Shown: positions 336 through 58,560 of the stretch, in pieces
Layout of the letters: the number at the start of each line of letters is the position of its first letter
Numbering within the stretch: position 1 is the stretch's first letter
From: Loxodes magnus
Lineage: Eukaryota > Ciliophora > Karyorelictea > Loxodida > Loxodidae
Assembly: GCA_946699065.1 (NCBI GenBank)
Contig: CAMPDV010000136.1
Span: 62,001 to 126,000, forward strand
Length of the DNA: 64,000 nt
Reading direction: 5' to 3'
Made by a program: the position numbers and the translations under genes
The notes under the pieces: generated by a model
What the model was told of the DNA's origin: nothing
The model's database searches: none
What the model saw: only the letters and a program-made list of their open reading frames with translations

Positions 336-859
336 TGTATAATTTATTGTAATTAATCCTGGCTAGTGATCTCCTATAATTCTTTTTTGATAGAATTTAG
401 TGCTAATTATATTAGGTGCAATGTCTTAATCTTTCAAAAAATAGTCAATTTTGAAGCTTTTTAAACCTGCATTTGTGATAAAAGTTGGGCCATCTTTGGG
501 ATCTTAGTATTATAGCTTAAAATCTCTCATTATGCCTAATAGATATTGACATCTAGGTTTAATTCGTTGGGTAGGAATTATGGAATGTGCACATAAAGAT
601 CACCAAGTACTAATACTTTAAATCTATCATTCATCACCCTGTGTATAAATTATTGTAGTCCATCATAGAAAGGAATAAGCTATTCGTGCGAATTTGTTCG
701 GTGCGTATACGTTTATTAAGGCTAATTTATTGCTAATTCTATACATATTATTCTACCTCCTTAAAACACATCTGCTTAGTTAAATCTATCTACCTCTCAT
801 TCCTTAATTCTTTTCGTAATTTCTTCTTTTATGTAAAAAGCCACTCCTTTGCTGTGTTT
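336..859 (-). pseudogene. endonuclease/exonuclease/phosphatase (AP-type) domain of a LINE ORF2, frameshifted
   Basis: Translated with TAA/TAG as Gln, this segment shows the characteristic blocks of LINE AP endonucleases in the right order: GVAFYIKEE, a beta-strand block ending INVYAPN, a GDFN-like block (LGDLYVHIP), then KIDYFLK and IIGDHQP, which match the SDH-type histidine motif at the domain end. The family cuts target DNA to prime reverse transcription. At least one frameshift separates the INVYAPN block from the GDLYVHIP block. The GDFN block reads GDLY, so the conserved Asn of that block is changed. Both points argue for an inactive remnant. Confidence 0.65.
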
Positions 860-1149
860 TGTTCCTGCCTTCAAGATTGCTTTATAACCATATATTTATG
901 GCATCTATGCAATCTCCTCTATAAATATTTCTTAAATAGCCCATTATATCTGCTTGCTTATCTTATAAGAACTTATGCAGTTTTTCCTTATTTGTTTTTA
1001 TCCTCTAACATTAGCTGTACCAATTTTTATTTTTTCTCAGATAATAGTATTCAATTCCTTTTATATTAGTAGTTCCTTTTCTTCGTTATCTTATTATTAG
1101 CTTTTTTATATTTTTTTTGTTTAATGAAGCCAAACTCTTCAAGTGATTG

Positions 1150-1806
1150 TGTTGTCTACTGAATCTGAGATTTTTATTTACTCTATTTTTTGTATTCTTA
1201 CTATCATTGTATTTTTTCAGTGATTTCCTTACAATGAATCTTTTACTGATACATTGCTTTGCTAAGTTCATTATGTTCTAGCGGGCTCAGTTTTGTTCTG
1301 TCACATTTTAGAGTTATGATCCTTACAATATCCTTGGGTTACTCAAATCATATTATTTCAAGCTCTATCCATTTTTGTAACCTCCAAAACTTTTTATAAT
1401 TACTGTATACATTGTGAATAAACTCAATTTTGGTTGTTTTTCTTATTACTCTTTAAATATCATACTTCCTTTTCATTTTAAATTTTTATATTCCTGTATT
1501 CTTAATCTTTAAGTTATTATAAAGGGTTTATTTTCTGTTCAGTAATATTATTTTTGTTCATGTTCGTGTTCTTATTTTAGAATTCTTCTGCTTTTTTTAT
1601 TATTTCTAAGATAGTTTCTTTTCTTATGCATTATTTCGTACTATGGTCATTCAATTGACAATCTTAGCATTTTCACTTGATTGGATGGCTTAGTTTAGTC
1701 TTTATTTCAAAATTGTCAACTATTTCTGGGATTTTTTGTAGGGCTTCCTCTTTATGCATTTTTAAGTAGTTGATCATCTTTCCATTTAACATTGCTGTTC
1801 CTTCCC
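1150..1806 (-). pseudogene. LINE ORF1-like protein with one CCHC zinc knuckle
   Basis: The minus strand encodes a stretch that ends in a Gag/ORF1-type zinc knuckle, CQDCQLNDHSTKQC (C-x2-C-x4-H-x4-C), at 1669-1628. It is preceded by a hydrophobic and charged segment containing KIPEIVDNF. Downstream the frame continues through a Lys/Asn-rich tail towards the endonuclease domain. Such ORF1 proteins bind element RNA. I infer this role from the position next to the endonuclease. The start codon is not identified, and the segment may be broken. Confidence 0.5.
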
Positions 1807-2349
1807 ATGTTTGTATCATTGTCTATTTAATTAAGCCCCATTATTTTAGTTTATTCTCTATTAAATTTGTTCATCTCCCTATCTAGATTTCATTGTATTG
1901 GGTAATTCTTTAAGTTAAAATATTGTTTGGTATTTCTTTTTTAATCAGTATTTTCTGAGTCTTGTATTACCACGCTCCCATGTTTGCATATTATTCCAGC
2001 TGCTCTTAGTTAACAAAGAAGATTAAAATTTTTCCATTTGGTAGCCGTTAGATTTTTCTATATTTTATTATTGCATAGTCCTAAAGTATTGTAAAATTAT
2101 TTAATTACCACGTCCCTTTCTATTTATTTAATCTAAAATTTTTATTATTTGTATTTTCTTTGTAGGTATTAATTGAAATAAGCCATTCCTATTCCTTTTA
2201 GTTGTTAATCTTTATTCTGACTACCTCCCTAAAGTCTATTCCTTATTTAAACAATTGAACATTCCCAACATTTAAATGCTTAAATTTGTCCAGTTATTAA
2301 TAAATATCGTAAATTCTAAAAGCTCTTTCATGCCTTTGCATATATGTTT

Positions 2350-4631: not shown

Positions 4632-5350
4632 TTTTTTATGAATAAATTAGCTTACGTGATTTCACCTTTATTTGATTAATCACAAATCAAAAATTTAAAG
4701 TTAAATAAAAGAAATTTCATATTTGTTTGGATCTTGTTTATCATACGTTCTAAGGATTTTTAATCTATTTTTTCTGAGAATTTCTGATAGATCGTTTCCC
4801 ATTCATTTCTTATTAAATTCGTTAATTGCATGCTATATGTTTGGAGCTTCTTTGTTTAGCTAGAGTATTTTTTTCCTGTATAATTTACCGTCTTGATTGC
4901 AATAGATCCTGAAAATATTTTCCCATTAGTTTTCTACTATTTTCTTTTATTTTTATTAGAATTGGAAGCAGCTTCTAACTTTGTACCCTGGTCGGTTGCA
5001 GTATCAACAATTCATTATTTTCCAATAGGAAATATAATTTGTTGTATACTGTTGCTCTACATCAATCGGATCTTTCATCTACATTTTTGCAATAATATGC
5101 TTTCAGTTAACTCTGCAAATTGATTAAATTTTGTTTCTAATTATTCTATCCTGATAATTCCTAGCTATCTATTTTCAAATTTTTTTTCTTATGAGTTAAT
5201 CATCAAGTGTTCAATTTTTCTTTCGAGTTCTTGTACAGTTCTTAAAAGTTAAAAATTTTCTAATTGCATGACTTGGAGTTCTTAAAGTATTTATTATTAA
5301 TCGTAGCTTGACTAAGATGATTCCTTTTGAGAAGAGATTTTTTGCAAGTA
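4632..5350 (-). mobile_element. decayed copy of the coiled-coil/CCHC element family
   Basis: The minus strand encodes a knuckle CWYCNRPGYKVRSC (about 5012-4966) in which the zinc-binding His is replaced by Tyr, a one-base change. About 30 codons downstream comes the family's second motif, YCNQDGKLYRKK (4905-4869). The same pair of motifs occurs in the element copies near 7.8 kb and 57.8 kb. A glutamine-rich and charged helical region precedes the knuckle. The minus-strand 3' end meets an A8 tract next to the tRNA-like half. Frame continuity outside the motifs is poor, so I treat it as a remnant. Confidence 0.5.
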
Positions 5351-5433: not shown

Positions 5434-5629
5434 TTAAAAAAAATGTTTCATACTAACAATAATGTTTGTTACTGATAAAATTATCAGATACTGGTAGACC
5501 TTGTTCAATACTGGTTCAATTATTCAGTACTGATAAAAATATTCAATACTAATATAATTTTAGAATAATCGTAATCTTTAATACTTGCTGCAGGTCCAAA
5601 GACATGGCAGGATTGTGTCTCATTGCATC

Positions 5630-5850
5630 ACCAAAGCAGAGGACGACATGTGTCAATTATGGATACTTAAATTCCCCACCTCTGATGAAGTTCGCAATAT
5701 TATTTCTTTTTAGTTCCAGAATTAAAAATAAACGAAACCAGGCCAAGCCAGTGTCGAAGGTCTAAGAATCTTATGTCTCGAGGCCAAACCAAAGCAGATG
5801 AAGACATAAAGTCGATTATGGGTACTTAACTTCCCCAACCTCTGATGAAG
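5630..5850. repeat. two diverged ~62-bp direct repeats in a GC-rich island
   Basis: Copy A (5630-5690) and copy B (5788-5850) both begin ACCAAAGCAGA and end CCTCTGATGAAG, with about three quarters identity between. They lie in a 290-bp island that is much richer in G and C than the surrounding DNA. Neither strand gives a protein I recognise, and the sequence does not match a spliceosomal RNA, 5S rRNA or tRNA that I know. A structured RNA or a transposon fragment are both possible. Confidence 0.45.
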
Positions 5851-26660: not shown

Positions 26661-29600
26661 ATATAACCTTTTTTTAATTTACTTCATGGTCTTTCTTTTT
26701 TAATAAATGCTTTTTTATCTCTTTTAAAGATTAAATTTATCATTTAATTTTTCCTTCAAAGATTTTCTAAATAGATAATTCTATTTTTATTTTCTAAGAT
26801 AATATAGCTCTTTTTATTCAATTAAATCTAAATTCTATATGCAAATTAAGAGATTATAGTAAATTCTTTTGATATAAATCAATATTTGTTCCAATATAAA
26901 CTAAGATATTTTCCTTTCAGCTTCTTTTTCAGAAGGAGTGCTTTTGAAAAACATATTTTAGAAGATAAGTTTTGAGGATTTCTAGTTTTCATTTTCTCGA
27001 TATAATTTTAAGTTGACAAGTTTTTATTTATGCTAATAGTTCATAAAATTATCGTTCTAAATTTTTCTTTTATCAAATTTAAATCTTTCTCTTGATTTTA
27101 TCTTTTTAATATCAATTGCTCCATTTTATTCTTTCAAAAATTCCCTCATTTACTTTCTATAAGTAGTGCTGAATATTTGAAACATTCCCTTCCAAACTAA
27201 ATTAAATTTATACTAATTTCTAAGTAATGATTTGAAATCTATTTAATGATATATAGTTAGTTTAGTGAATTTTGATATCGTAATTAAAATAATAGGTTTT
27301 GCTTATATATAAAATAGCCTTATATAATTCCTATAATTATTAAAGATAAGTTTATTATTAAGTATTACTAACTGCTAATATTATTTTGCTTTTTTGACTA
27401 TTAAATGTAATAGCTCTATTTAATAATTCCTCTAATTAATCTACTTCTATTATGAATCTAGCTATTACTCTTATTGATGCGCTTTTGTATAGTTAAACAG
27501 CATTTTTATATTTGTTTCATTTATATGTTTTGCCTTTATTATGTATTATTCCAATTAAGCTAGAATATATTAAAACTGTAATGTTTTAACTCATAAATAG
27601 AGCAATAATAAATATAGAAAATAAAAAGTTTATAGTGCTGGCTAATAGTTACTTAAAGCTAAAAGATATATATAATAATAGTATTAGCTATATTAGAGGC
27701 TTAAATTAACTATTTACTATTTATAAATTACTTACTTATATTATCAAATATATTCCATTTCTTTAATTTAGACTTTTCCGTCTAATCAGATATTAATAGC
27801 TTGTACATAATAAAACTGCTCAAATCAACTTAATAACCAATTAATAGCTAAGCTTAACAAGTTAATATTTAATAAACCTATTTTTATAAAGCTAAAGATA
27901 CAACTTTTAAATTATAAAGCTTTAAACAAAAGTCATTAATTCAAACAGACAAGACTCTACATGATAGCAAAAAGGTTTGAAATTATTGATATTTTATAAA
28001 CTAAAAGGAACACTAATATATGTAAAGAATGTATAAGATTAGATTTAAATCCTTATTAAATATTATAAAGTCTTATATTATGCATATGCAAACTACTAAA
28101 GAAATAATAAGTTCTAAATAGATAAGTAATTATAAATAAAGAACAAAGATTCATTATCATTCTTAATCTTAGTCTAATAAAGCTATATGAAAGCATTTTT
28201 AGAAATAGTAATTATCATATGAATTCTTTAATATAATAACTTAATGAGGCTTTATCTTTAATCTTATTATCCTAATCTTTTTTATCTAAATTAAGTAATT
28301 AAAACTTTGGTTTTGCTTATAATATTAAGAAGTTTTAATATTTAGAAGCAAGTTTATAATTAAATAATAGTCTCTAGATATAGTAGGTTTAGAAGCAAAT
28401 AAAGATATTAATAAAATTTTAATTAATAAGGTTGGAGATTAGAATATAAGTTAAATTATACAATTATTTAATGATGTAGTGATAAAAATTAATTAAGAAA
28501 TAAGTTAATTTTTATTTAGTTTATCTATTATAAATTAATGCTGCAAAAGTAATTCAAATTCGAGATTATTAAAAAAGTAATGCATAGTCAACTTTAACCT
28601 TTTTTAAAGTTGATATTATACAACAAATAAACAATAAATACTTACCTATTAAAATTTATAAAAACGAAGACATAATTTAATGTTCCAGTTTAAAAATATA
28701 TTAAATTTAATAAAATAAACAAGAAAAATATCAAAAAAACTTTGATAAAAGATATAATAAATATGTGTAATTTTCAGTTAAAATGATAGGATAACTAAAT
28801 GAGAAAAAGGCAACAACGCAAGATTGAGCTAGCTTGAAGCATTTATAATAATTTTAAAATATTTTAACTTAAATATAATATTTTAGTTTAATAAATAAAC
28901 TTAAAGATCTGAATATTTCCAATTATTAAGTAACATCTATCTCTATGCTTAATTATAAAACTTCATAAATGTATTAATAATGACTATTTATCTAATGCAA
29001 TTAATGGTCTTATTTAATAGTAGCATTTTTTTCTTACTAGAGTTTCTAAGTTAAAGAACAAGTATTGAAAGAGATGATTATAATAATATTTTAATTTTGA
29101 TCACTTAGCTAATATTTTTATTAATGATATACAAAAATTTAAATATTGGTTAGTCATATGATAAAGATCTTAACAAATTATTAATTTTATTGATAAATTA
29201 TAAATCAAGCTTAAGATAAGCAGTTTAATCTAAGACTGTAAAATCTATAAGAATTGTAGGAGTATTGAATCTAAATTTAGTATTTAAGTATTAAGAACTT
29301 ACACTAAGTTAAATATAAATTGATATAAAACTCTCTACATATTAAATTTTTATAATAACTAAAAATAAAGCATATTCTAAAAACTCACTAAATCATATAA
29401 TCAAGATTCTAAGCTAATTGTCTATTAAGCAAAATAATTCTTCCCTCTTAATTCTGTAAGATAGTATAAAACTTTAAGTATTTAACACTTATTTCTAAAC
29501 TTTTAGTAAGAAAGTTCCTGTATAAATAAAATTTAGTAGATATATTTAAAGACTTTAATGAAAATTCTTGTTTATAGATAATAATTAATAATAAGAAACT

Positions 29601-29771
29601 AGAATAAGTAAAAATAAGAAATACATCTATTATTAGATTAAAATTACATTTTTTCTTTAGATATTATATTTAAATATCCTACTCTTTAAAACTTGATTTA
29701 AATAGCAAATAAAAAAAATCACAGTGAAGATATAGGTTTAAATCATAAAATTAAGAATTAAGAAGCACTTA
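26661..29771. other. AT-rich stretch, gene content unresolved
   Basis: T-rich to about 27.2 kb, then A-rich. Individual frames contain short plausible runs, but none is sustained, and there is no motif, RNA gene or strong repeat. Confidence 0.25.
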
Positions 29772-31747
29772 TCAATAGGATATAAATTTAAATATTCTTT
29801 TTGAAGGATGATTCAATGCTCATTCAGCTTTGGAAACTTTTCCTGACTTATAAATCATTTTTCCTAAACCTTATCTTTTACCTTTCTAAAACTGTCCTTC
29901 ATATATATCTCCGTTTAAGTAAGTATATCTTCCTTTTGAAGGATAATCCTATTTTCATTCACCTTCGAAAATATCTCCTGATTTATAAATCATTTTTCCT
30001 TAACCTTATCTTTTGCCTTTCTAAAAATATCCAACATAAATATCTTCATTTTCAGGAGATTCTTATTCTTTTACTTCTATTTTCTTTTTTTATTGATTTT
30101 CTAAATTTTCTTCTTAATACTTTTTTTTTTTTTTTAGTAAACTAAATGTTAAAAAAATGTTTTGGCATATTCTGGACTTTCAACCAGTTCCTGCCGCCAT
30201 TTTTTTGACTCGGATGGATACCGCGACCATTTTTTTTATGTGGATGGTTACCACTGATTGCTTTCAAAAGAGCGCATAGGCAGTTTTTATTTGTATATTC
30301 CTGTTGGAGTTATCCATAGAAAATTCAATGCTCTTCATGTTCTTTATTATACCTTTTCATTTAATTTTTTTCATTCTCAGCATCTTCTTAATAAGTGGTA
30401 ATTGGATTGGCAATATCAACATTATTTTTTAATCTTCTTTTGACTAATATGTTTTTTAAATAGCTTATTTTCAATATTTTCTAGTCTTTTAATTAAGTTA
30501 TTATCATATCTAATTTCTTTCTGTTCTTAAACACTTTATAATGGAGTGAAAGTTTTTTCAATTTCCATCTTTGATGTACGTTAAGATTTTTATTGCGATT
30601 ACATTCAAAGTTGTTCTTCCGTTATTACCTTGTTTTCTATTAGCTGATTCTTAAGGATTTCCATTTCATTATTTTGCACGTCAATGTTTGTTGTAAGTTC
30701 CCGTATTAATAAGTCTTAATTATATATTGTTTCTTCGTATCGGGATATAATTTTTTACATTTGTTCGATCTTTTGTCGTAGTTCCTCTGAAATATCTGAT
30801 TTAAATTCCTCAGCTTGCAAAGTTCCGATCATTATTTTACCTTATGAGTCGGAACTTGATTCTTCTTATTGTTTTGCTTTTTATCGAAGTACTTAAGCAG
30901 CCTTTTTCCGAGCATTTCTTATTTGATTTTTATTTAATCTAATGTTCTGCTCCATCTTTTTTTTTTTTTTTTTTATTTCTTCTTAATACTTTTGTATTTT
31001 ATTTTAATCTTATTCTTTTTTCGCTTTCATTTTTTATATTTTTTATAGATATATTTTTAATTTGCTAATTTAATTTCGATTTTGCATGTCATAAATTATT
31101 TTTTTATTTTTTAAACAATGAAATATATTATTAGATAAATTTTTATTAATTATTTTCCGATATATTTTTTAGTTAAACTCCGTTTTTTTTTAATTTAACT
31201 TTTAAGTGAAATTTAATATTATGACTACAAATATTTTGTAATTCGAGGTTTTAAAATTATTTTTGTATGTTTATTTTTAGTAATTGAATTTAAGATAATC
31301 AAAGAGAAGAAAATAGTGATCTTTTAATTCATTTTGTTTAATTTTTTAATTCTTTTTAGTAAAACTAAAGATTAAGTTAATTTTGATTTAAAAGTTTTTA
31401 ATTTTTATATTAATCTATTTCATAGTGATTATAGTTATAAAGAAAGCTCTTTTTATTGTTTGATTTTCAACTATTTTATATATAGAATTTTTGATAATCT
31501 GATATTTTAGTATTTATTCTTCTTTTATTTAGCTATTTTTACTATTTTTAAGGAAAATTATTTTATAAAATTTTATTCTTTTTAAAGAGCCTGTTGCTTT
31601 ATATTTGAGCTTTGTTAATCTAATATCATTTATTAACTGAAATTAAATGTCCTTTCTAAAAATTTATCTCTTATGTTTATTGATGAAGATGCAGTGTTTT
31701 ATTTGAAAAGCCTGATAATATTCATTAATCTTTTTAGTATTACTCAT
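29772..31747 (-). CDS. MORN-repeat protein gene split by an element
   Basis: The minus-strand frame opens at ATG 31747 (MSNTKKINEYYQAFQIKH) and runs about 250 codons of Lys-rich sequence to QKYQEE at the 18-bp repeat. The gene then stops making sense because of the insertion at 30125-30975. Beyond it, from 30106, the frame resumes with NLENQQKKK and four MORN repeats (for example EDIYVGYFQKGKRQGQGKM), the last degenerate, to TGA at 29774-29772. Removing the element and one repeat copy (869 bp) leaves exactly 369 codons, counting the stop, in one frame. MORN repeats usually bind membranes or act as scaffolds. As it stands the gene is disrupted unless the insert is removed from DNA or RNA. Confidence 0.75.
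30107..30124. repeat. 18-bp direct repeat, left copy
   Basis: TTTCTTCTTAATACTTTT, identical to 30976-30993. The two copies bracket the element exactly, and one copy is part of the MORN coding sequence. Interpreted as a target-site duplication, or as a pointer if the insert is excised. Confidence 0.85.
30125..30975 (-). mobile_element. intact 851-bp coiled-coil/CCHC element inserted in a MORN gene
   Basis: The segment is bounded by an exact 18-bp direct repeat (30107-30124 and 30976-30993). In minus orientation it starts with an A18 tract, then GATG and an uninterrupted reading frame. It ends with ATTTAGTTTACT followed by a poly-A tract next to the second repeat. The direct repeat with a 3' poly-A fits target-primed insertion by LINE machinery. 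The presence of A tracts at both ends is unusual. The insert length is not a multiple of three, so it breaks the host frame. An internally eliminated sequence removed during macronuclear development is the alternative reading. Confidence 0.75.
30134..30955 (-). CDS. coiled-coil plus CCHC zinc-knuckle protein of the element
   Basis: About 273 residues from ATG at 30955. A basic N terminus (LNKNQIRNARKKAAQVLRQ) is followed by an acidic Ser-rich patch and a long coiled coil (residues ~55-110). After MEIEK comes one zinc knuckle CWYCQSNYHLLRRC (C-x2-C-x4-H-x4-C). The tail holds two copies of a unit like PSESKKWRQ, matched by a tandem DNA repeat at about 30190-30250. Three of the Trp codons around the knuckle are TGA. 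Such proteins usually bind nucleic acid. No TGA closes the frame inside the element: the last codon before the poly-A tract is TAA, which is Gln in this code. It may therefore terminate differently or read on. Confidence 0.65.
30976..30993. repeat. 18-bp direct repeat, right copy
   Basis: Identical to 30107-30124. In the host gene this copy encodes the KYQEE segment. Confidence 0.85.
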
Positions 31748-32996
31748 ATTTGTAACTTAAAATGATGCAATCTACTATTTTTTTACAAGTAAATAAAGCA
31801 CTTACTTTGAAAATAGATTTTAAACCCTATACTAATTTTTATTTTTTTAAGTCAATTCAAAATTCAATTTATAATATACAATATTTTTAATTGATAAAAG
31901 TTATCTGATCTACTACTTATTATTAATTTCTTTCTTCCTTTCATTTTAATTTTCCTAGCTATTTCATCATGATTTTTCTCTTACTTCTATTTAAGTTTAA
32001 GTGATATAAAACATTCTTCTTTTAATAGCAGATAAACTAAATTGTAAAATATTAGAGTTATTAGTTAATTCTCTAATATTTAATAATATCTAATTATATA
32101 GCCTTTAATCCTTGCAAGCAGAAATAAATCTACCTAGAACAACTAATAGAAAGATAGCTTCTTTTTCTATATATATGAAAGGTATAAGGTTGAATATTAA
32201 GTTATCCTTAAAATTAAATCTTTAATTGTTTTTCATTTGTTAATTATAAAATACTTTGAACTCATCTATAGTACCATAGCATTCTTCTTAAATTAAGATT
32301 TGAATGCTTTCTTATGCTACTCTATCTCTTCTTTAATCTTTTCTAGTTTGCTTAAATATTTTGTTTAATATAAATAGATATCTTTTCACTAGATTAGAGA
32401 TCACTACATTATCGAAATACTGAACTCAAAAATTTATAGTTTCATCTGCCAGATTTTCTATCTAAATTTACATTTTCAAACTACTAGCTATTAACTTACT
32501 TCTAATTGTATTGCTTAAAGCATTTTAGACAAGAGGCTTCTTAGTAACTAAGCTAACTTAGCCTTTAGGTTATGATAAAGATTTACATAAAAGTCTCAAA
32601 CCTCAGAAAAAAGCTAGTTTTAAGCAAAGTTTAATTCATATTATTTATCTACCAGATTAACTAAGATAACCAGAGTTAATTTTTTTTAATTTAGCGTCTC
32701 TTCAATATAATATCCGCTATTCAAAAGGCTAGTATTAAGTCTAAATTATTATTTTATTTAGGTTATTTTTATAATAGCTATATGTTTACTAGCTAACAAG
32801 CTTGATACAAAGTCAGCATTTTAGCCTACCTTTTCTAGAATTTAAATTAGCTCTTAATTTTAGCTAATTAATTCCTCTTTTCTTATTTATATTATTTAGA
32901 CTGATTTTTCTAAAATTATTATGTATTTTACAAGGTATTTTTTAAGATCTTTAAAAGATACTAAAAGATTAAAAGCAGTATACAAAAAGTAACAGT
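31748..32996. other. AT-rich stretch upstream of the MORN gene, no confident gene
   Basis: T-rich on the plus strand, so minus-strand coding is possible, but I found no motif or sustained reading. It contains the 5' region of the minus-strand MORN gene. Confidence 0.25.
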
Positions 32997-46779: not shown

Positions 46780-49700
46780 ATGCAAAATAATCACAGCTTA
46801 TTCAAAAAATATTCAAAAATCATGATTTATCTTAACGGAAATGTTTACAATGGTACTTTAGAAAAGGAATTACCTCAAGGATAAGGAATAATGAACTATC
46901 CAAATGGAGATATATTTGAAGGATGTTTTGAAAATGGAAAAAGATAAGGCTAAGGTACTATGAAATATAAGTCTGGAAAATAATTTACAGGGGAATGAAA
47001 ATGAGATAAGCCATGAAATGCTTATGGATTTTATAAATAAGAAACCGGAGACATATTTGAAGGACATTTTTAGAATGGGAAAAAATAAGGTTAAGGCACT
47101 ATGAAATACAAATCTGGAAAATAATTTTCGGGACAATGAAAATAAAACCAGCCGTATAATGGTGATGGATTCTATAAATATGAAAATGGAGACAAATACG
47201 AAGGCCATTTTGTAAATGGATAAAGATAAGGTAAAGGTTTAATGATATACAATTAAGGCGAACAATTTGAAGGCGAGTGAAACTAAGATTAACCTTAATC
47301 GGGAGCTTATAAATATTAAAATGGAAACTTATATGAAGGAAAGTTTGCAAATGGATAAAGATAAGGTTTAGGTACTATGAAATATAATTAAGGCGAATAA
47401 TTTGAAGGCTAGTGAAACTTAGATTAACCTTAAATCGGAGTTTATAAATATAAAAATGGAAACTTATATGAAGGACATTTTTAGAATGGGAAAAAATAAG
47501 GTTAAGGCACTATGAAATACAAATCTGGAAAATAATTTTCGGGACAATGAAAATAAAACCAACCGTATAATGGTGATGGATTCTATAAATATGAAAATGG
47601 AGACAAATACGAAGGCCATTTTGTAAATGGATAAAGATAAGGCAAAGGCACAATGAAATATAATTAAGGCGAATAATTTGAAGGCTAGTGAAACTAAGAT
47701 TAACCTTAATCGGGAGTTTATAAATATTAAAATGGAGATGAATACACTGGACAATTTTTAAATGGAAAAAAATAAGGTAAAGGAAAAATGATCTATCATA
47801 AAGGAGATTAATTCGAAGGTAAATTTTACTGAGATTAAATCTTTGAAGGAATTTATAAATATTAAAATGGAGACTCTTTCAAAGGATATTTTATAAATGG
47901 TAAAAGATAAGGCTAAGGTACTATGAAATATAATTAAGGCGAATAATTTGAAGGCGAGTGAATAAAAGATCAACCATTCAATGGTAATGGAGTTTATAAA
48001 TATGAAAATGGAGATGAGTACGAAGGAAAGTTTTAAAATGGTTAAAGATAAGGTTTAGGTACTATGAATTACAAATCTGGAGAAACAATTTAGGGAGAAT
48101 GAATATAAGATAAACCATTCAGTGGTATTGGAACCTTTAAATATTTAAATGGAGATGAGTACGAAGGAAAATTTGAAAATGGCTAAAGATAAGGCTAAGG
48201 TATAATGAAATATAAGTCCGGAAAATAATTTTAGGGAGAATGAATATAAGATAAACCATTCAGTGGTATTGGAACCTTTAAATATTTAAATGGAGACGAA
48301 TACGAAGGAAAATTTGAAAACGGATAAAGATAAGGTAAATGTTTAATGATATACAATTAAGGCGAACTATTTGAAGGCGAGTGAAGCTAAGATTAACCTT
48401 AAATCGGAGTTTATAAATATTAAAATGGAAACTTATATGAAGGAAAGTTTGAAAATGGATAAAGATAAGGTTAAGGTACTATGAAATACAAATCTGGAGA
48501 AACATTTTAGGGAGATTGAAGCAAAGATTAGCCTCTATTTGGAGTATTTAAATCTTAAAAATGAGATATTTAATATTGCTAGTTTTAAAATGAATAAACA
48601 TAGAAATATTAATTAACAGACTATAAGTTGGAAAATTATAATAAAAAAGAGCGCAAATAAAAAGAAACGCTTAAATAAAGCCTTTTGTAATCTATTATAG
48701 ATATATAGCAACTCTAATTTTTAAAAAATAACACCTCTGGATTTATTACTTTTGAATTAGATTTTGATTAATTTTTCAATTAAATAGCCTTTGAGACTAA
48801 GGTAGATAACTCAAGATAAATAAAAATTGAAGGAAAGTGAAGCAATAGTTAGCTAGAGTAAGTTTTAAAAATATAAGTATGCAATGAAATAATATTTGAA
48901 TGAGACTAATTTTTAGCTGATAAAGATAAAAGCATTTAATAAAAATAAATAATTTAGATTTAAATAGGAAAAGATAACAATTCCCAATAATATTAAAGTT
49001 AATAAAGTTGCATCAATAAAGTATGAAGAAATAAGAATTTATTGCAGCAAATATTTTCCTTTTTAAATTTACGAAGTATATTTAATTTAACTCAAGTTAA
49101 TAATTTTTTGTGGAAGTTTCCATATTAAATAAATAAGATATCAATAAGACATTATAATGATAGCACTTAATATGTAAGAAATAAAATATGAAGCTGCTTA
49201 AGATTATTACTGAGGTCGTAAGTTAAAAGTTTGAATATAGATTTATCAAATTTTTCTTAAAGTTCATTTAATGAATTTCATTTCATGTTTTAGATATCTC
49301 TCATTTTAAGCCAGATATCATTTTATTAAAGCAAACAAAAAAATTAACTTTAGGAGCTCAAAATAGATAGCTCAGAATAATTTGCTAGTCTATTAAGCTT
49401 GATACCTGCTTCTTTGAAATATCTGGTCTTAAAAGGAAAATTTCAAGATTAAGATTTAAAATTTTTGTCTAGATTAACTAAGTTAGAACATCTTGAGTTA
49501 GATAGTTAATCTTAAATATCTAATGAAAATGGAATATAAGGAAGTTTTCTAATAGATTTTTGTTAAAATTTGAATTTAAAAATTATAAAAATAAACAGTA
49601 AGACTATTAAAGTTTCCTACTTACAAGAATATTTATAGCAAAAAGGAAATTTAATAGAAGAAATAAATATCAACTAAAACTAGGAAATCAACTAATTGCT

Positions 49701-52490: not shown

Positions 52491-53130
52491 TCTTAATACA
52501 ACTTAACTATCTGCTTTATTTGTAAAAGTTACTTAGCTTATCTAAGAACATATTTCATTACTTAGGTTTTGTAATTTCTTTATAGAGTTACCTTTATATT
52601 ACTTTTTAGCAAGTTGATAAGATCCATCTATAAACAAAATTTCATAATGTATTAAAGTGATTTTCAGCAATACAAATATACATTTACTCTTATTAGGATA
52701 TATTTGCTTATAACCAATTTGAAATATTAAGATAACTTAGAAAGAAGATACCAAGAATATAATTTAGCTAATTTCTTTTATCTAAATAATATTTAAAAGG
52801 GACTATTATTCTCATTTATACGATGAATTCTTTATTTTATATAATAACTGGAATACATGCTTCTTCATTGTAAAAGCTAAGATTAAGTATTGATATAATT
52901 AAAAGCAGACTAAATATGGAATTTAGTTATATAATTGAGCATATTAAATTATATAGCTCCAAATATATTACTACAGACTTTAGAAACTTGTTTTAATATA
53001 AATAAGATAAGATTATCATGCTTTTAATACCAACTTTATGGTTATTTTGATTAATTTATATTATTAAATATATTATTATAAGGTTAATCTATATTTGATG
53101 AATTTAGGTTAATAAGTTTTAGTTTGTAAA
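52491..53130. other. intergenic region between convergent genes
   Basis: AT-rich sequence between the 3' ends of a plus-strand and a minus-strand gene. No feature recognised. Confidence 0.35.
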
Positions 53131-56100
53131 TCAATTTGCATATTCCATGCTATGTTGAATGGTTTCAACTAGAGTGTCATAAACTCTAATTTAAAATTCA
53201 GAAATTTTGTCCATACAAATAACTTCGAAGTTCTATCCATAATAACCTTTAAACAAATCGATCGTTTAGTTTAACTTATCATTCAACTTAACAAATTTTA
53301 ATTCTGCTTTTTTCTCTTTCATTTTGCTGAGCAAAGATTTCCAGTTCAAATTGCAAGGACATCCTTTTGGATGATTCGTTCCTTTTAAGAATTCATCTCC
53401 ATGAGGAGAATCATCTCCTACAATGAAAACAATTCTCGAAGCATTTGTCCTTCAAATAAGTGTATTAGATCCATTTATACCATCTAACATAGCTTCGCCA
53501 TAATTTCTTCCGCCTCCACTTGCTTAAAGTTTTTCTAAAAATTAAATTGCCCCTTCAGCAGTAAAATCTACTAAAGCTTGCGATTAAGGATAAACAGAAA
53601 TAGGAGGATCAGACGGAAAGTTTCCATTATCAGGATAATGGTCTGTATATCCAACAATAGCAAACTTTAGATCTAAATTTTCTGATGCATGATTATCCTG
53701 ATATTTAATAATATTTCTTATAACATTTTTTAGCTCCTTGAAATATTTATCCATTGATCCTGTACAGTCAAGTATAATAGAAATGTCGAACATATTTGAT
53801 CGATGAAAGCATTATGGAAATTGATGATGCTTGTGTTAATTTGATTACATTCCTTCATGAAATAGTTTCCATTCGCAATAAACTTTCTCCTAATGGTCTG
53901 ATGAGTTACAGTAATATGGGCATAGTTTAAATTATTCTTATTAGAAAGAATCGATCTTTTAAACGGGAGGTAACCAGTTATGTAGTTATCAATAAGCAGA
54001 ACATTCGAATAAATCATATTTTTCGTTTAAATTAGGCATATACTAATCATTAGAATGAATAGCGTATCCTACATGAGTTATTCCATAACATTTTTCTCCT
54101 CCCTCGCATTTCATAGGATGACTATGTCCTCTCCCTTTACGTAGACAAGCTTATCAGCACTACTCTGGCTTAGCAGATTCCCCTGATACTAATTTTCTTG
54201 TAGTTTTCTTATTTTCCTCTTCAATTTCAAATTAAAACTCTTTTGTTTTAGCTATATACATACATTTTTCTTTGTTTCGATGTGATGATGAAGAATGTAA
54301 CCCTGGATGTCCAAATATATTTTCACAATAAACTCCACAATCTCTACATCTAATTTGACATCTATGCTTAGCCTCTCCACATTTATGTTCACCTTCATGC
54401 TAAAGACATCCAGCAGGAATAGGAATAATGCACTCACATCTAGATTCACTTTCAGAGACATAATTATATTTAAACTTATTAAATGGATTTTCCCATTCAA
54501 GTTCTGCACAGCTAGTTTCTATTTTACATACTCCTTCCACTTCGCATTATTACTTACACTTATGCAAATTGCCACACAAATGTTATTCTGATTGATTAGT
54601 AAAGCCATGAAGATGGTCTTTATTAGAACATAAGGCTACACACCCTGATATAGAGCAAGAAAAAGGACAATTTTACTATCCACAATCATGTTAATTAGCA
54701 TGTTCTTCTATCTAGTTAAAATTTTATTCGATTTGACATAATCTTTTACATTATTAATACATTACACACTTTTCACCACAAGGATGGGATATTGAACTGC
54801 ATTTATGCTTTTATCCTTCATGATCAGGTTGTCAAACACACTTATTCTAGCAATTTTTGAAAGTGCAGGGTTAATCACATACGTGATTTTTATCACCACA
54901 TATATGGATTCCTAAATGTCCTGAATTTTAGGAGCACATATTTAATTCTTTACATATCTAGCATCTAAAAATACACTTATGATCAGTCTAGCAATCACAA
55001 AATTCGTTATGGTTGAGATTTAATACGCATGATAAACCACATTCTTTGCATTTTCTTCTACATAGAGAATGAATCCATAGTAGATTTTCATCAAAATATT
55101 TTTCTAGTGTAATTTTTTCAGCCTCAACAATAGGCTAGAATTCAGTATCGATTTCTCCGATTTATTTGACGAAATAACCGAAAATGCATAATTTTAGTTA
55201 TTTGAAATAGTTTACCATAAATTTATCCAAAGCCTCATATCATTAATTCCACATTACTTTTCTTAGATTTTCTTCTTTTACTACACTTTTCTCTAAAAAC
55301 TAGTCAAAAACTTAATGCTTCAATTTAACATCCAAACTTATGTGAAGTAAGTTCATCTCAATCTGGTAGCGATTTTCACTGTCAACATCAAAGTTATCAA
55401 TGTAGTTACAATTTTCCTGTTGTAGCAGTGAAGCTAAGGAAGAAGGATTCTTAATTGAGTCTCGGATACATTTTATATTTTTAGAAAATTTTGCTTAAAA
55501 TACTCTAGAATCTGTTACTTAACCATCATCAGAATAAATTTAAGCCATAACAGTCTTAAGTATGTCAAGAAAATCACCTCCTGAGCATCATCTGCTTTCA
55601 ATCTAATTTAAATAAAACTGTCTTCTTTCCTCAATAGCAGTAGCGAATATTTATTCATTCTCGAAATGATGATATGAAAAGCAGAGAAATTTCCCTTAAA
55701 AAAGCTTCATTAAGAAGTCTGCCTTATTGTTTCTGGTAAGATTTTCGATGAACTTTATTACTTCCTAATTTGCCTCCTCTCCTTGATTAGAAGCTACGTC
55801 TCTTATAGAGATTTCTAATTAACCCCTAAACAAAGACTTTCCCTTAAGTCTATCTATTCCATATGAAAACTTCTCAAATAAATAAGACAAATTACGGTTA
55901 AAAGTCAGATCTTAGTTGAGAATTGTAACATCTGAAATAGCTGAAAGTAATAAGCAAAGCTTTATTTCCTCTTACACTGTTCTTTCGAAAGAAAAAAGTC
56001 CTTCACAGTCAAAAACAATTATCATTTAATCTTCAACTTGTGTAACGCTAATCCATATACCATCAGTGCAACGATGTGCTGCTACATCGAACCTCGTTCC

Positions 56101-57452
56101 AAAAATTCTATTAAGTAAATAGCTTTTACCTGAGCTTTATCTTCCCATAATGGAAAAAACTTTAATTGTTTTCTTAGTATTTCGAATAATAGGCTCTAAA
56201 TATCCTAACCTTATATATAAAGAGAATTAATTCACAAAATCTCCTTAAGATTCCTTCACCTCATTAACAAAATTTTCGAAATTGTTAAATCCATCTCTTA
56301 ATGGTATCAAATTTCCTTCTTGAATAGATGCTAAATGCAAAGGCGCTCGTGTATATAACTTGCTTTTAAATTGCTTGGAATCCTAAAGAAGTTCAATATT
56401 TTCCTATTTTATTCTTTATATTAGTGCTTCATTAATTACACCCTTAAAAGTCATTAACTTATTCAAAGAATCTATACTTTTAATATAATTCAGTACTTCT
56501 TTCTTATTTATATCCATATAAATATATAAATCAGGCATAAATTCTTAAAAATGACTTGCTCCTCCAAACTTATTTAGAGCATAATGTAGTATATCAATTA
56601 TAGGGTTTCCTTCTATTTTCTTATTATTTTGCTACTCTACTTTGCAATCTGTTTATTCTCTATCACTTTAAAATCGATACGCTACTAGTTTATTTTATAA
56701 CTCTTGTACCAATAAAATGTTTCAAAATCCACAACCTAGTAACTTGAAATTTACTTTAGCAGATGTAACATTTATTAGCTCGATGAAACTAAAATTTATA
56801 TCATATATTTCTATCGTGCTTTCACTTAAAAAGCAATACACACTTTCATCTTTAGTGCTTTTTACATCATAAAATCGATTTCCCTATTTTGGAGCAAATT
56901 ATGCTTATACTCTTTATGGCTCTTTTTGCTCCTCTATAATAAGTATGTTTTCTTTCATTACTTGTGTGATTATTTTTTAACCACTAACTAACTCCACTTA
57001 AAATACTTTGCCTTGTTTGTTTATTATAAGAACTCGCTTTGCATTTTGTAATAAACAGCTTGAAATGACTTACTATATATTTATATCATAAACTTCAAAT
57101 TAAATTCCATTTCAAATGTTTTTCAACTCTTTAGATGCCATAGTATGCTTTTTTGTCCTGGTTACAAAAGGCTACAAATAATTAAGCATTAGATCCATAA
57201 GCTAGTAATATTTAGTCCTTTATTACATCTAAATAATCTATTTCATATCTATATTAACTTAAAGGATTAAAATTAAAGGCTTAAAAATAATCTTATTAAT
57301 CATTAAAAATGAAAGCGCTGTTTTCTTCTAAAATGAAGAAGCTTTAATTAATTAATTTTAACTATAAGGGTTAGGGTCATCTTTAATTAGAGGAAATGCT
57401 TCCTCAAATTAAAGACAATAAACGTTTTTATATTCAATACTCAACTGTACAT
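53131..57452 (-). CDS. large GTPase (VLIG/GBP-like) with Cys/His-rich region and C-terminal VWA domain
   Basis: About 1407 residues on the minus strand, ending at TGA 53133-53131. The N-terminal ~380 residues are beta-rich (propeller-like). At residue ~404 comes the P-loop GRQSSGKSYLLNRIFGTRF, then a switch-like RCTDGIW and DCEGLFSFERT, features of the GBP/VLIG large GTPases. Residues ~750-1120 hold many Cys and His in zinc-binding style (CKECGLSCVLNLNH, CGDKNHVCNQPC). The C-terminal von Willebrand A domain carries a MIDAS-like DCTGS at about residue 1196. Three inferred GT...AG introns near the 5' end (57403-57440, 57328-57362, 57202-57226; 38, 35 and 25 nt) restore one frame; the third could instead be 28 nt at another site. 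The start at 57452 is provisional. VLIG-type proteins are immune-linked in animals; a role here is unknown. Confidence 0.7.
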
Positions 57453-58560
57453 GTCTTCATCTGAATCAATTTCAAACTGAGATAATCTTCTTTCTCTTCA
57501 ATAAGTTCATAAAATTGTTCTTCCATCTTCTTGTAATTTTTCTCCAGCTTCTCTAAACAAATTCTAAGGTCATTGCTGTCCTTTTAAAGCTATTTATTCT
57601 GTTACTATTAATTACCAAGATCCTGTTTGATTAGAGTCACACTTGAATCATCTAATATCACCTTCTTTCTGTAAATACCTCCAAAGTAGTTACAATATAG
57701 CCTCCTCGATGTTCCAAATTATTTATGGTGCTGTTCAAGCACTCTTCTTCACTTCGGACATTACCTCCAAAAATGTCCAGCCTTTTGACAACAATAGCAA
57801 CGTTTTATTAATGGCTTGAATTAAAATTTTTATTCTGTTTACATTTTTTCAATTTCCATCTTTTCTGATTGAGGTTAATTTTTTTTGATTGGTAATCGAA
57901 TTTCTTCTTTAATTTTCTATTGATTTGCTTCTAGGTTTTTTTCTAATAGTTCAAATTAAGAAGTTAAGGCTTCAATTTAAAACTAAACTATACTTACCAA
58001 GTCTTGATCTTCCTTTTTTCTATCTTAAAAAAGAACCCGAAGATTCAAGTTTTCCGCCTTCAGGATCTATATTTCGGTATTCATTTTCTCAATTAATGAA
58101 TAAAGCTAAATAATGTCTTGCTCGTGGGGTTTCTCAAGCTTTTTCAGTTTGCTAGGAAATTCAGTATTTTCCAGTCCTTAACAGGAGTTAATTTATCTTT
58201 TATGAATTCTTGGTTCTTGTTGGTTAACTGAGACTTAAGATTGATCTTTAAGGTTAGAATTTAAGGTTTAGATTCGCGGATTTTTTTCCATTTTTTTTAA
58301 ATGAATACGAAGAAGTTTTAATATTCTGGTATTTAGTATAAATCTATTTTATATTCAGTGTCTGTTTCGATAAATGATATTTCATTTTCAACGATCTTTA
58401 TATAGAAATTTTGATTATAGATTAAACTAATTTCTGACTACCAATTTGTTCGTTGATTATTTATTTTATTTCATTTTTAAAGTCATTTATGAGACTTTGT
58501 ACCTTTTGTTCTATACTTTCTTTAATTTTATTTGTTTAATTAGTCATAAATTATTATAAT
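57450..58560 (-). mobile_element. diverged coiled-coil/CCHC element next to the GTPase gene
   Basis: The minus strand encodes a helical N-terminal part in two frames, then one long frame with a coiled coil (EKMNTEIQILKAENLNLR). After MEIEK comes a knuckle CYCCQKAGHFWRQC with all four ligands intact, then the family motif YCNYFGGIYRKK and a second coiled coil (RICLEKLEKNYKKMEEQF). It ends near TGA 57437, overlapping the presumed start of the GTPase gene. MEIEK, the knuckle and YCN..G.IYRK are shared with the other copies. At least two frame changes upstream suggest decay or introns. No flanking direct repeat was found. Confidence 0.55.

Follow-up and report, generated by a model that had tools for sequence, protein, structure and literature searches.

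A probable LINE-mediated retrocopy near the start of a small MORN gene within a window of karyorelict-type genetic code

The insert, its flanking repeat and its A-tracts

On the minus strand of the window (the whole 64-kb stretch of DNA that we analyzed) lies the body of a small MORN gene, and directly upstream of it an 851-bp insert that has a reading frame of its own in the same orientation. The features of the locus are given here in the order in which they are met along the minus strand.

30994..31030 (-): where the MORN gene probably starts, with an ATG at 31030, about 12 codons upstream of the repeat or 18 counting the repeat
30976..30993 (-): TSD copy 5' of the insert, AAAAGTATTAAGAAGAAA, 18/18 match to 30107-30124
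30957..30974 (-): 5' A18 tract, directly preceding the G-ATG of the insert ORF; the longest A/T run in 64 kb
30125..30975 (-): 851-bp insert, probably a retrocopy, bracketed by the 18-bp repeat and differing in GC from the adjoining DNA
30133..30955 (-): insert ORF from ATG 30955, with a coiled coil, KMEIEK, CCHC and IYKQK, TGA being read as Trp
30380..30421 (-): CCHC zinc knuckle, CWYCQSNYHLLRRC; a profile of three copies matches zinc knuckles
30121..30135 (-): 3' A15 tail, which overlaps the 3' copy of the repeat by its final 4 A
30107..30124 (-): TSD copy 3' of the insert, an exact 18-bp repeat
29772..30106 (-): MORN gene body, comprising two 135-bp units and a degenerate one; Pfam MORN, codon score +29.5

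An earlier note on this DNA had described an 18-bp repeat bracketing the element, and the repeat is indeed exact (TTTCTTCTTAATACTTTT at 30107-30124 and 30976-30993, spacing 869). Read along the minus strand, the 5' side runs ...AATAC-AAAAGTATTAAGAAGAAA-T-A18-G-ATGGAGCAG... into the insert, and the 3' side runs ...TTTAGTTTACT-A11-AAAAGTATTAAGAAGAAA-ATTTAG.... On the sense strand the site is TAC/AAAAGTATT, in which AAAA is present and TT absent, AC preceding the AAAA. GC content is 28.3% in the insert, compared with 16.3% in 31031-31747, 19.1% in 28772-29771 and 22.9% in 31748-32747.

Taken alone, the 18-bp repeat is weak evidence in a window as AT-rich as this one, because an exact 18-mer pair at a distance of 300-2000 bp also appeared in 5 of 30 copies drawn from an order-4 Markov model. 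Outside the MORN array at 46903-48560, three further exact pairs of this kind lie 100-10,000 bp apart in the window, and the MORN unit itself accounts for one. A/T runs of at least 12 nt occur in the 64 kb only as the A18 and A15 tracts, one at each insert end, and the next longest run is 9; across 100 order-5 Markov copies of the window minus the element, runs of at least 12 averaged 0.36 and runs of at least 15 numbered 0. When both strands were scanned for a repeat of at least 13 bp with an adjoining A-run of at least 8, within 7 kb, the window showed the combination once; of 60 order-4 Markov copies, one showed it, with a repeat of only 13 bp. Within a GC-richer stretch at 5613-5807, two 37-bp copies that are 76% alike and stand at a distance of 158 bp are possibly a short interspersed repeat; they had no Rfam match at gathering score.

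Genetic code and the probably interrupted MORN gene

A long MORN-repeat gene at 46834-48669 (+), in which Gln is mostly TAA, gives good evidence for a code without dedicated stops. Within its array (46903-48560), TAA and TAG are read as Gln and all 14 Trp codons are TGA, 11 of them at the conserved GEW-type position; a single-frame reading of the gene at 53.1-56.6 kb contains TGA and TGG 7 times each. The window therefore uses the karyorelict/Condylostoma type of code (table 27), with TAA and TAG as Gln and TGA as Trp. Excerpts of one study put TGA use very low in Condylostoma (0.042%) and Parduczia (0.120%) (PMC4967479), so that we infer a Loxodes-like ciliate, which would fit the window better. 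For L. magnus, the excerpted genome study gives TGA as the sole stop, read as Trp when it stands at a sufficient distance from the poly-A tail (PMC11441545).

The MORN body is well supported, with a Pfam MORN match over 29772-30104 (-) in three stretches (E 2.2e-13; 49.7 bits against a cut-off of 22.5) and a codon score of +29.5 against a null maximum of 8.0 (GC 25.7%). These scores come from a codon model trained on 53099-56649, a small and uncurated training set, and the null from the best frame at 400 random places on both strands; a self-trained coding HMM gave doubtful frames, and the codon model was used instead. The earlier note had held that deleting 869 bp would join two halves of a MORN gene of 369 codons. 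Its arithmetic stands: removal leaves exactly 369 codons in one frame from 31747 to 29772 (-), with TGA at 29957 and 29822 ahead of the final TGA at 29774, a frame that is open only if TGA is Trp, as the window supports. Likewise, 869 is not a multiple of 3, and the insert shifts the frame as claimed. Of the proposed gene, the MORN body survives, but 239 of the 369 codons (31747-31031) score as non-coding, at -71.7, -80.0 and -64.1 in the three frames with a GC content of 16.3%, where random pieces presumed to be intergenic have a median best-frame score of -55.8. We rejected the 369-codon gene on these grounds of codon usage and GC.

The MORN gene most likely starts at ATG 31030 and takes up the insert after about 18 codons, which would give it a probable length of 130 codons (to TGA 29774) or 114 codons (to TGA 29822), stop counted. 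An alternative that concerns the site, and is compatible with the retrocopy explanation, is that the insert lies upstream of the MORN coding region and splits no gene. The non-coding scores of 31747-31031 would agree with this, and the 18 codons from ATG 31030 (31030-30976), with a score of +2.2 over a stretch too short to decide, are too few to serve as proof of coding. However, no ATG of the MORN frame stands between the insert and the first MORN unit, and taking the insert out brings ATG 31030 into that frame; we consider an unsplit gene somewhat unlikely. With the insert left in place, ATG 31030 and ATG 30955, 25 codons further on, are read in the same frame, and the MORN body follows downstream in another. 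Since the two ATGs share one frame, a transcript from the MORN start would be predicted to encode a fusion with the insert ORF.

We also considered whether the insert is a germline-limited internal eliminated sequence (IES), cut out at an 18-bp pointer as the somatic nucleus forms. Exact removal does join two stretches in one frame, and the downstream MORN body is real by Pfam. Nevertheless, a code with TGA as Trp closes almost no frame, so one open joined frame is weak evidence, and agreement of frame across the insert is a 1-in-3 event of little weight; upstream coding is limited to about 18 codons, and A-runs at both ends together with an ORF are marks of retro-insertion. In the excerpts of the L. 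magnus study, moreover, no canonical IESs were detected (PMC11441545). If the organism belongs to the group of L. magnus, a species also rich in LINEs, excision is unlikely on this ground as well, and overall we judge it highly improbable. The insert would then be expected in both nuclei, perhaps on one haplotype. Of the two origins offered by the earlier note, recent retro-insertion is thus supported by the flanking duplication, the A-tail and A-runs that are unique in the window, and excision found no support in the sequence.

The insert ORF and its relatives

The element does carry its own zinc-knuckle ORF, as had been claimed, with the knuckle running from 30421 (-), given TGA as Trp, and backed by a profile of three copies. 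The insert starts immediately 5' of an ATG whose ORF scores coding-like (+15.2; GC 29.4%), the other same-strand frames scoring -0.7 and -6.1 against a null maximum of -5.7. Because one of these other frames, at -0.7, likewise lies above the null maximum, the assignment of the insert frame rests on homology. The part of the ORF from the knuckle to the end matches minus-strand stretches at 57.8 kb (score 60) and at 5.0 kb (score 85), with 0 of 1000 shuffles as good in each case, and the remaining five frames of the insert matched neither copy. The N-terminal halves of the insert ORF and the 57.8 kb copy did not score above shuffles (z 0.9; 173 of 1000), and the common coiled coil is accordingly no evidence of descent. 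The ORF alone matched no family in Pfam at E 10 or in NCBIfam at E 1. Its structure model (mean pLDDT 57.3) is confident for the coiled coil only, with a helix at 57-132 in which residues 61-120 reach pLDDT 84-91 in blocks of ten, and mostly poor for the remainder.

Toward its 3' end the ORF is less regular. No in-frame TGA stands close to the ORF end or tail; a TGA at 30182, which would give a 3' UTR of 44 nt, sits in another frame, and codon scores prefer another frame at about 30400-30176. On the basis of the missing near-tail TGA and these scores, damage to the copy is possible, or its last third may have been assigned the wrong frame. The Trp codons, taken toward the tail, are five TGA followed by four TGG, an order with a chance of 1 in 126 that is post hoc and frame-dependent; with that same qualification, it is as expected if TGA is avoided near the mRNA end. 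An imperfect 26-bp tandem repeat with a spacing of 30 lies late in the ORF (30197-30252) and encodes the repeated peptide PSxxKKW.

The relatives differ in setting. A large gene occupies 53100-58300 (-) and contains a URGCP/VLIG-like GTPase and a Cys-rich region, together with a weak match to vWA; its coding frame shifts along its length, and its 5' end bears, or is preceded by, a coiled-coil/CCHC/GGIYRKK module. The Pfam matches of this gene are MMR_HSR1 at E 1.2e-4 (just above the Pfam cut-off), URGCP_GTPase at E 1.6e-13 (below the cut-off) and a weak vWA at E 0.021. The 57.8 kb copy is in this GTPase gene, at the 5' end, or directly upstream of it, in the same orientation. GT..AG pairs at 17 nt, the modal intron length of L. 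magnus, occur at 2.69 per kb in 53.1-58.3 kb compared with 2.06 in intergenic DNA; at other lengths from 12 to 27 the counts are 1.92 to 4.61, so that intron length lends no support to a Loxodes-like source. The third CCHC/LYRKK module, at 4700-5300 (-), has Tyr in place of the knuckle His and its coiled coil in a different frame, and is probably a decayed gene.

Searched against the PDB, the profile of the three copies gave 17 matches at E up to 1, of which 15 were zinc knuckles (best E 3.9e-4) and the other two an ATPase inhibitor and a DUF5072 protein. Fourteen of the 15 knuckles were retroviral nucleocapsid or Gag, retroviral chains being common in the PDB, and one was that of cellular TUT7. 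A coiled coil with a CCHC knuckle is a common make-up of a LINE ORF1 or a Gag protein. Together with the predominance of nucleocapsids among the matches and the presence of three related copies within 64 kb, this would suit a non-autonomous ORF1-only retrotransposon like mammalian HAL1, that is, a multi-copy family that has its own coiled-coil/zinc-knuckle ORF1 and borrows the RT of a LINE. Several observations speak against it. The relatives, compared as two diverged copies within the window, are 22-23% identical to the insert ORF, which is not a burst; the repeat and A-run scan found nothing at either the 57.8 kb or the 5.0 kb copy; one copy occupies the 5' end of the GTPase gene or immediately precedes it, in the same orientation; and the same profile also matches the cellular TUT7 knuckle. 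We therefore think an ORF1-only element unlikely.

An autonomous LINE would have RT and endonuclease inside the element; the insert has 851 bp, one ORF and no Pfam family at E 10. No RT was seen beside either relative in the parts scanned. Pfam searches covered 1-3, 4.4-5.5, 7-10, 29.8-31.7, 46.75-48.8 and 52.8-58.6 kb, mostly on one strand, and elsewhere in the window RT was excluded solely by a scan for the motif [YF][AVMIC]DD, which is absent from all six frames of the 64 kb. We favor a cellular (host) gene family over a Gag gene as the parent of the insert, because one of its relatives belongs to or adjoins a GTPase gene, the other is a separate remnant, and the parts scanned next to them showed no RT. 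As a separate observation, 659-1879 (-) holds a coding-like frame (+33.6) with a CCHC motif, CQDCQLNDHSTKQC, and putative LINE endonuclease motifs; Pfam and PDB searches of it gave no endonuclease or RT match. A viral origin of the insert was also tried and set aside, since 18 pattern matches in viral contigs yielded 0 confirmed cases and no phage relative was found at E 0.01.

A proposed retrocopy model and its likeness to known systems

We conclude that the element is quite probably a retrocopy that LINE enzymes made from a polyadenylated mRNA and inserted recently, on the minus strand, into the 5' end of the small MORN gene. In the model we propose, a LINE endonuclease would cut the template strand of the target following a run of T's, the A-tail of the mRNA would pair with the target T's, reverse transcription would proceed to the mRNA start, and repair would leave the 18-bp duplication. 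The copied mRNA would encode a protein with a coiled coil and a CCHC knuckle, of which the window contains at least two diverged relatives. LINE-mediated retrocopies have TSDs of roughly 7-20 bp, and the locus presents an identical TSD of 18 bp with an adjoining A15 tail. That the repeat and tails are intact suggests a recent event. To our knowledge, a 5' tract like the A18 is not a usual retrocopy feature; its most likely source would be either the mRNA leader or the copying itself, if synthesis jumped to a further A-tail. In the excerpts of a study of human insertions, extra 5' bases are reported for 14.6% of L1 insertions with 5' truncation and for about 12% of those of Alu (PMC2912911), and the A18 could be such extra 5' sequence or part of the source RNA.

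If the window is from a Loxodes-like organism, the L. magnus study lends support to this model: its excerpts give about 2,700 RVT_1 and 1,200 Exo_endo_phos_2 domains and >30,000 LINE copies, as well as 504 repeats coinciding with indels of the monoallelic kind (PMC11441545). A further reading, which we rate as rather improbable, is that the insert is a full copy of an mRNA with both a 5' poly(A) leader and a 3' tail, from a stand-alone karyorelict mobile gene family that moves by borrowed LINE machinery; with no dedicated stop in the code, inserts of this kind would fuse with host genes and not truncate them. Among the matches listed in our literature search, no title concerned this locus or karyorelict retrocopies.

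By itself, a single locus of this kind is ordinary biology. If the organism is Loxodes-like, the retrocopy explanation would make it a gene struck by retrotransposition in a ciliate seemingly without genome editing and without a dedicated stop codon. Because there is no dedicated stop, an insertion there cannot simply truncate the protein; fusion or shifted reading results. With a set of A-tailed inserts one could ask how mobile elements are tolerated in a somatic nucleus that is not edited.

Among known systems, an mRNA retrocopy mobilized by human L1 (a processed pseudogene or retrogene) is alike in its A-tail, its long TSD beginning with AAAA and the sense ORF at the 5' end of the insert, whereas the present insert also has a 5' A18 tract and lies in a ciliate with an ambiguous code. 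HAL1, an ORF1-only retrotransposon of mammals, shares the coiled coil and a nucleic-acid-binding motif without RT, but here one relative of the insert sits at or beside a GTPase gene, the copies having been compared within the window. A ciliate internal eliminated sequence is alike in having direct-repeat flanks near or in a gene and differs in that the insert has A-tracts, an 18-bp repeat, a gene-like ORF and no sign of excision. Full-length human L1 insertions have TSDs that peak at 14-16 bp and a TT/AAAA site, according to the excerpted study (PMC2912911), whereas the bases before AAAA here are AC. The LINE families rnd-1_family-27 and -19 of Loxodes magnus, named in the excerpts of its genome study (PMC11441545), are the kind of element able to supply the endonuclease and RT.
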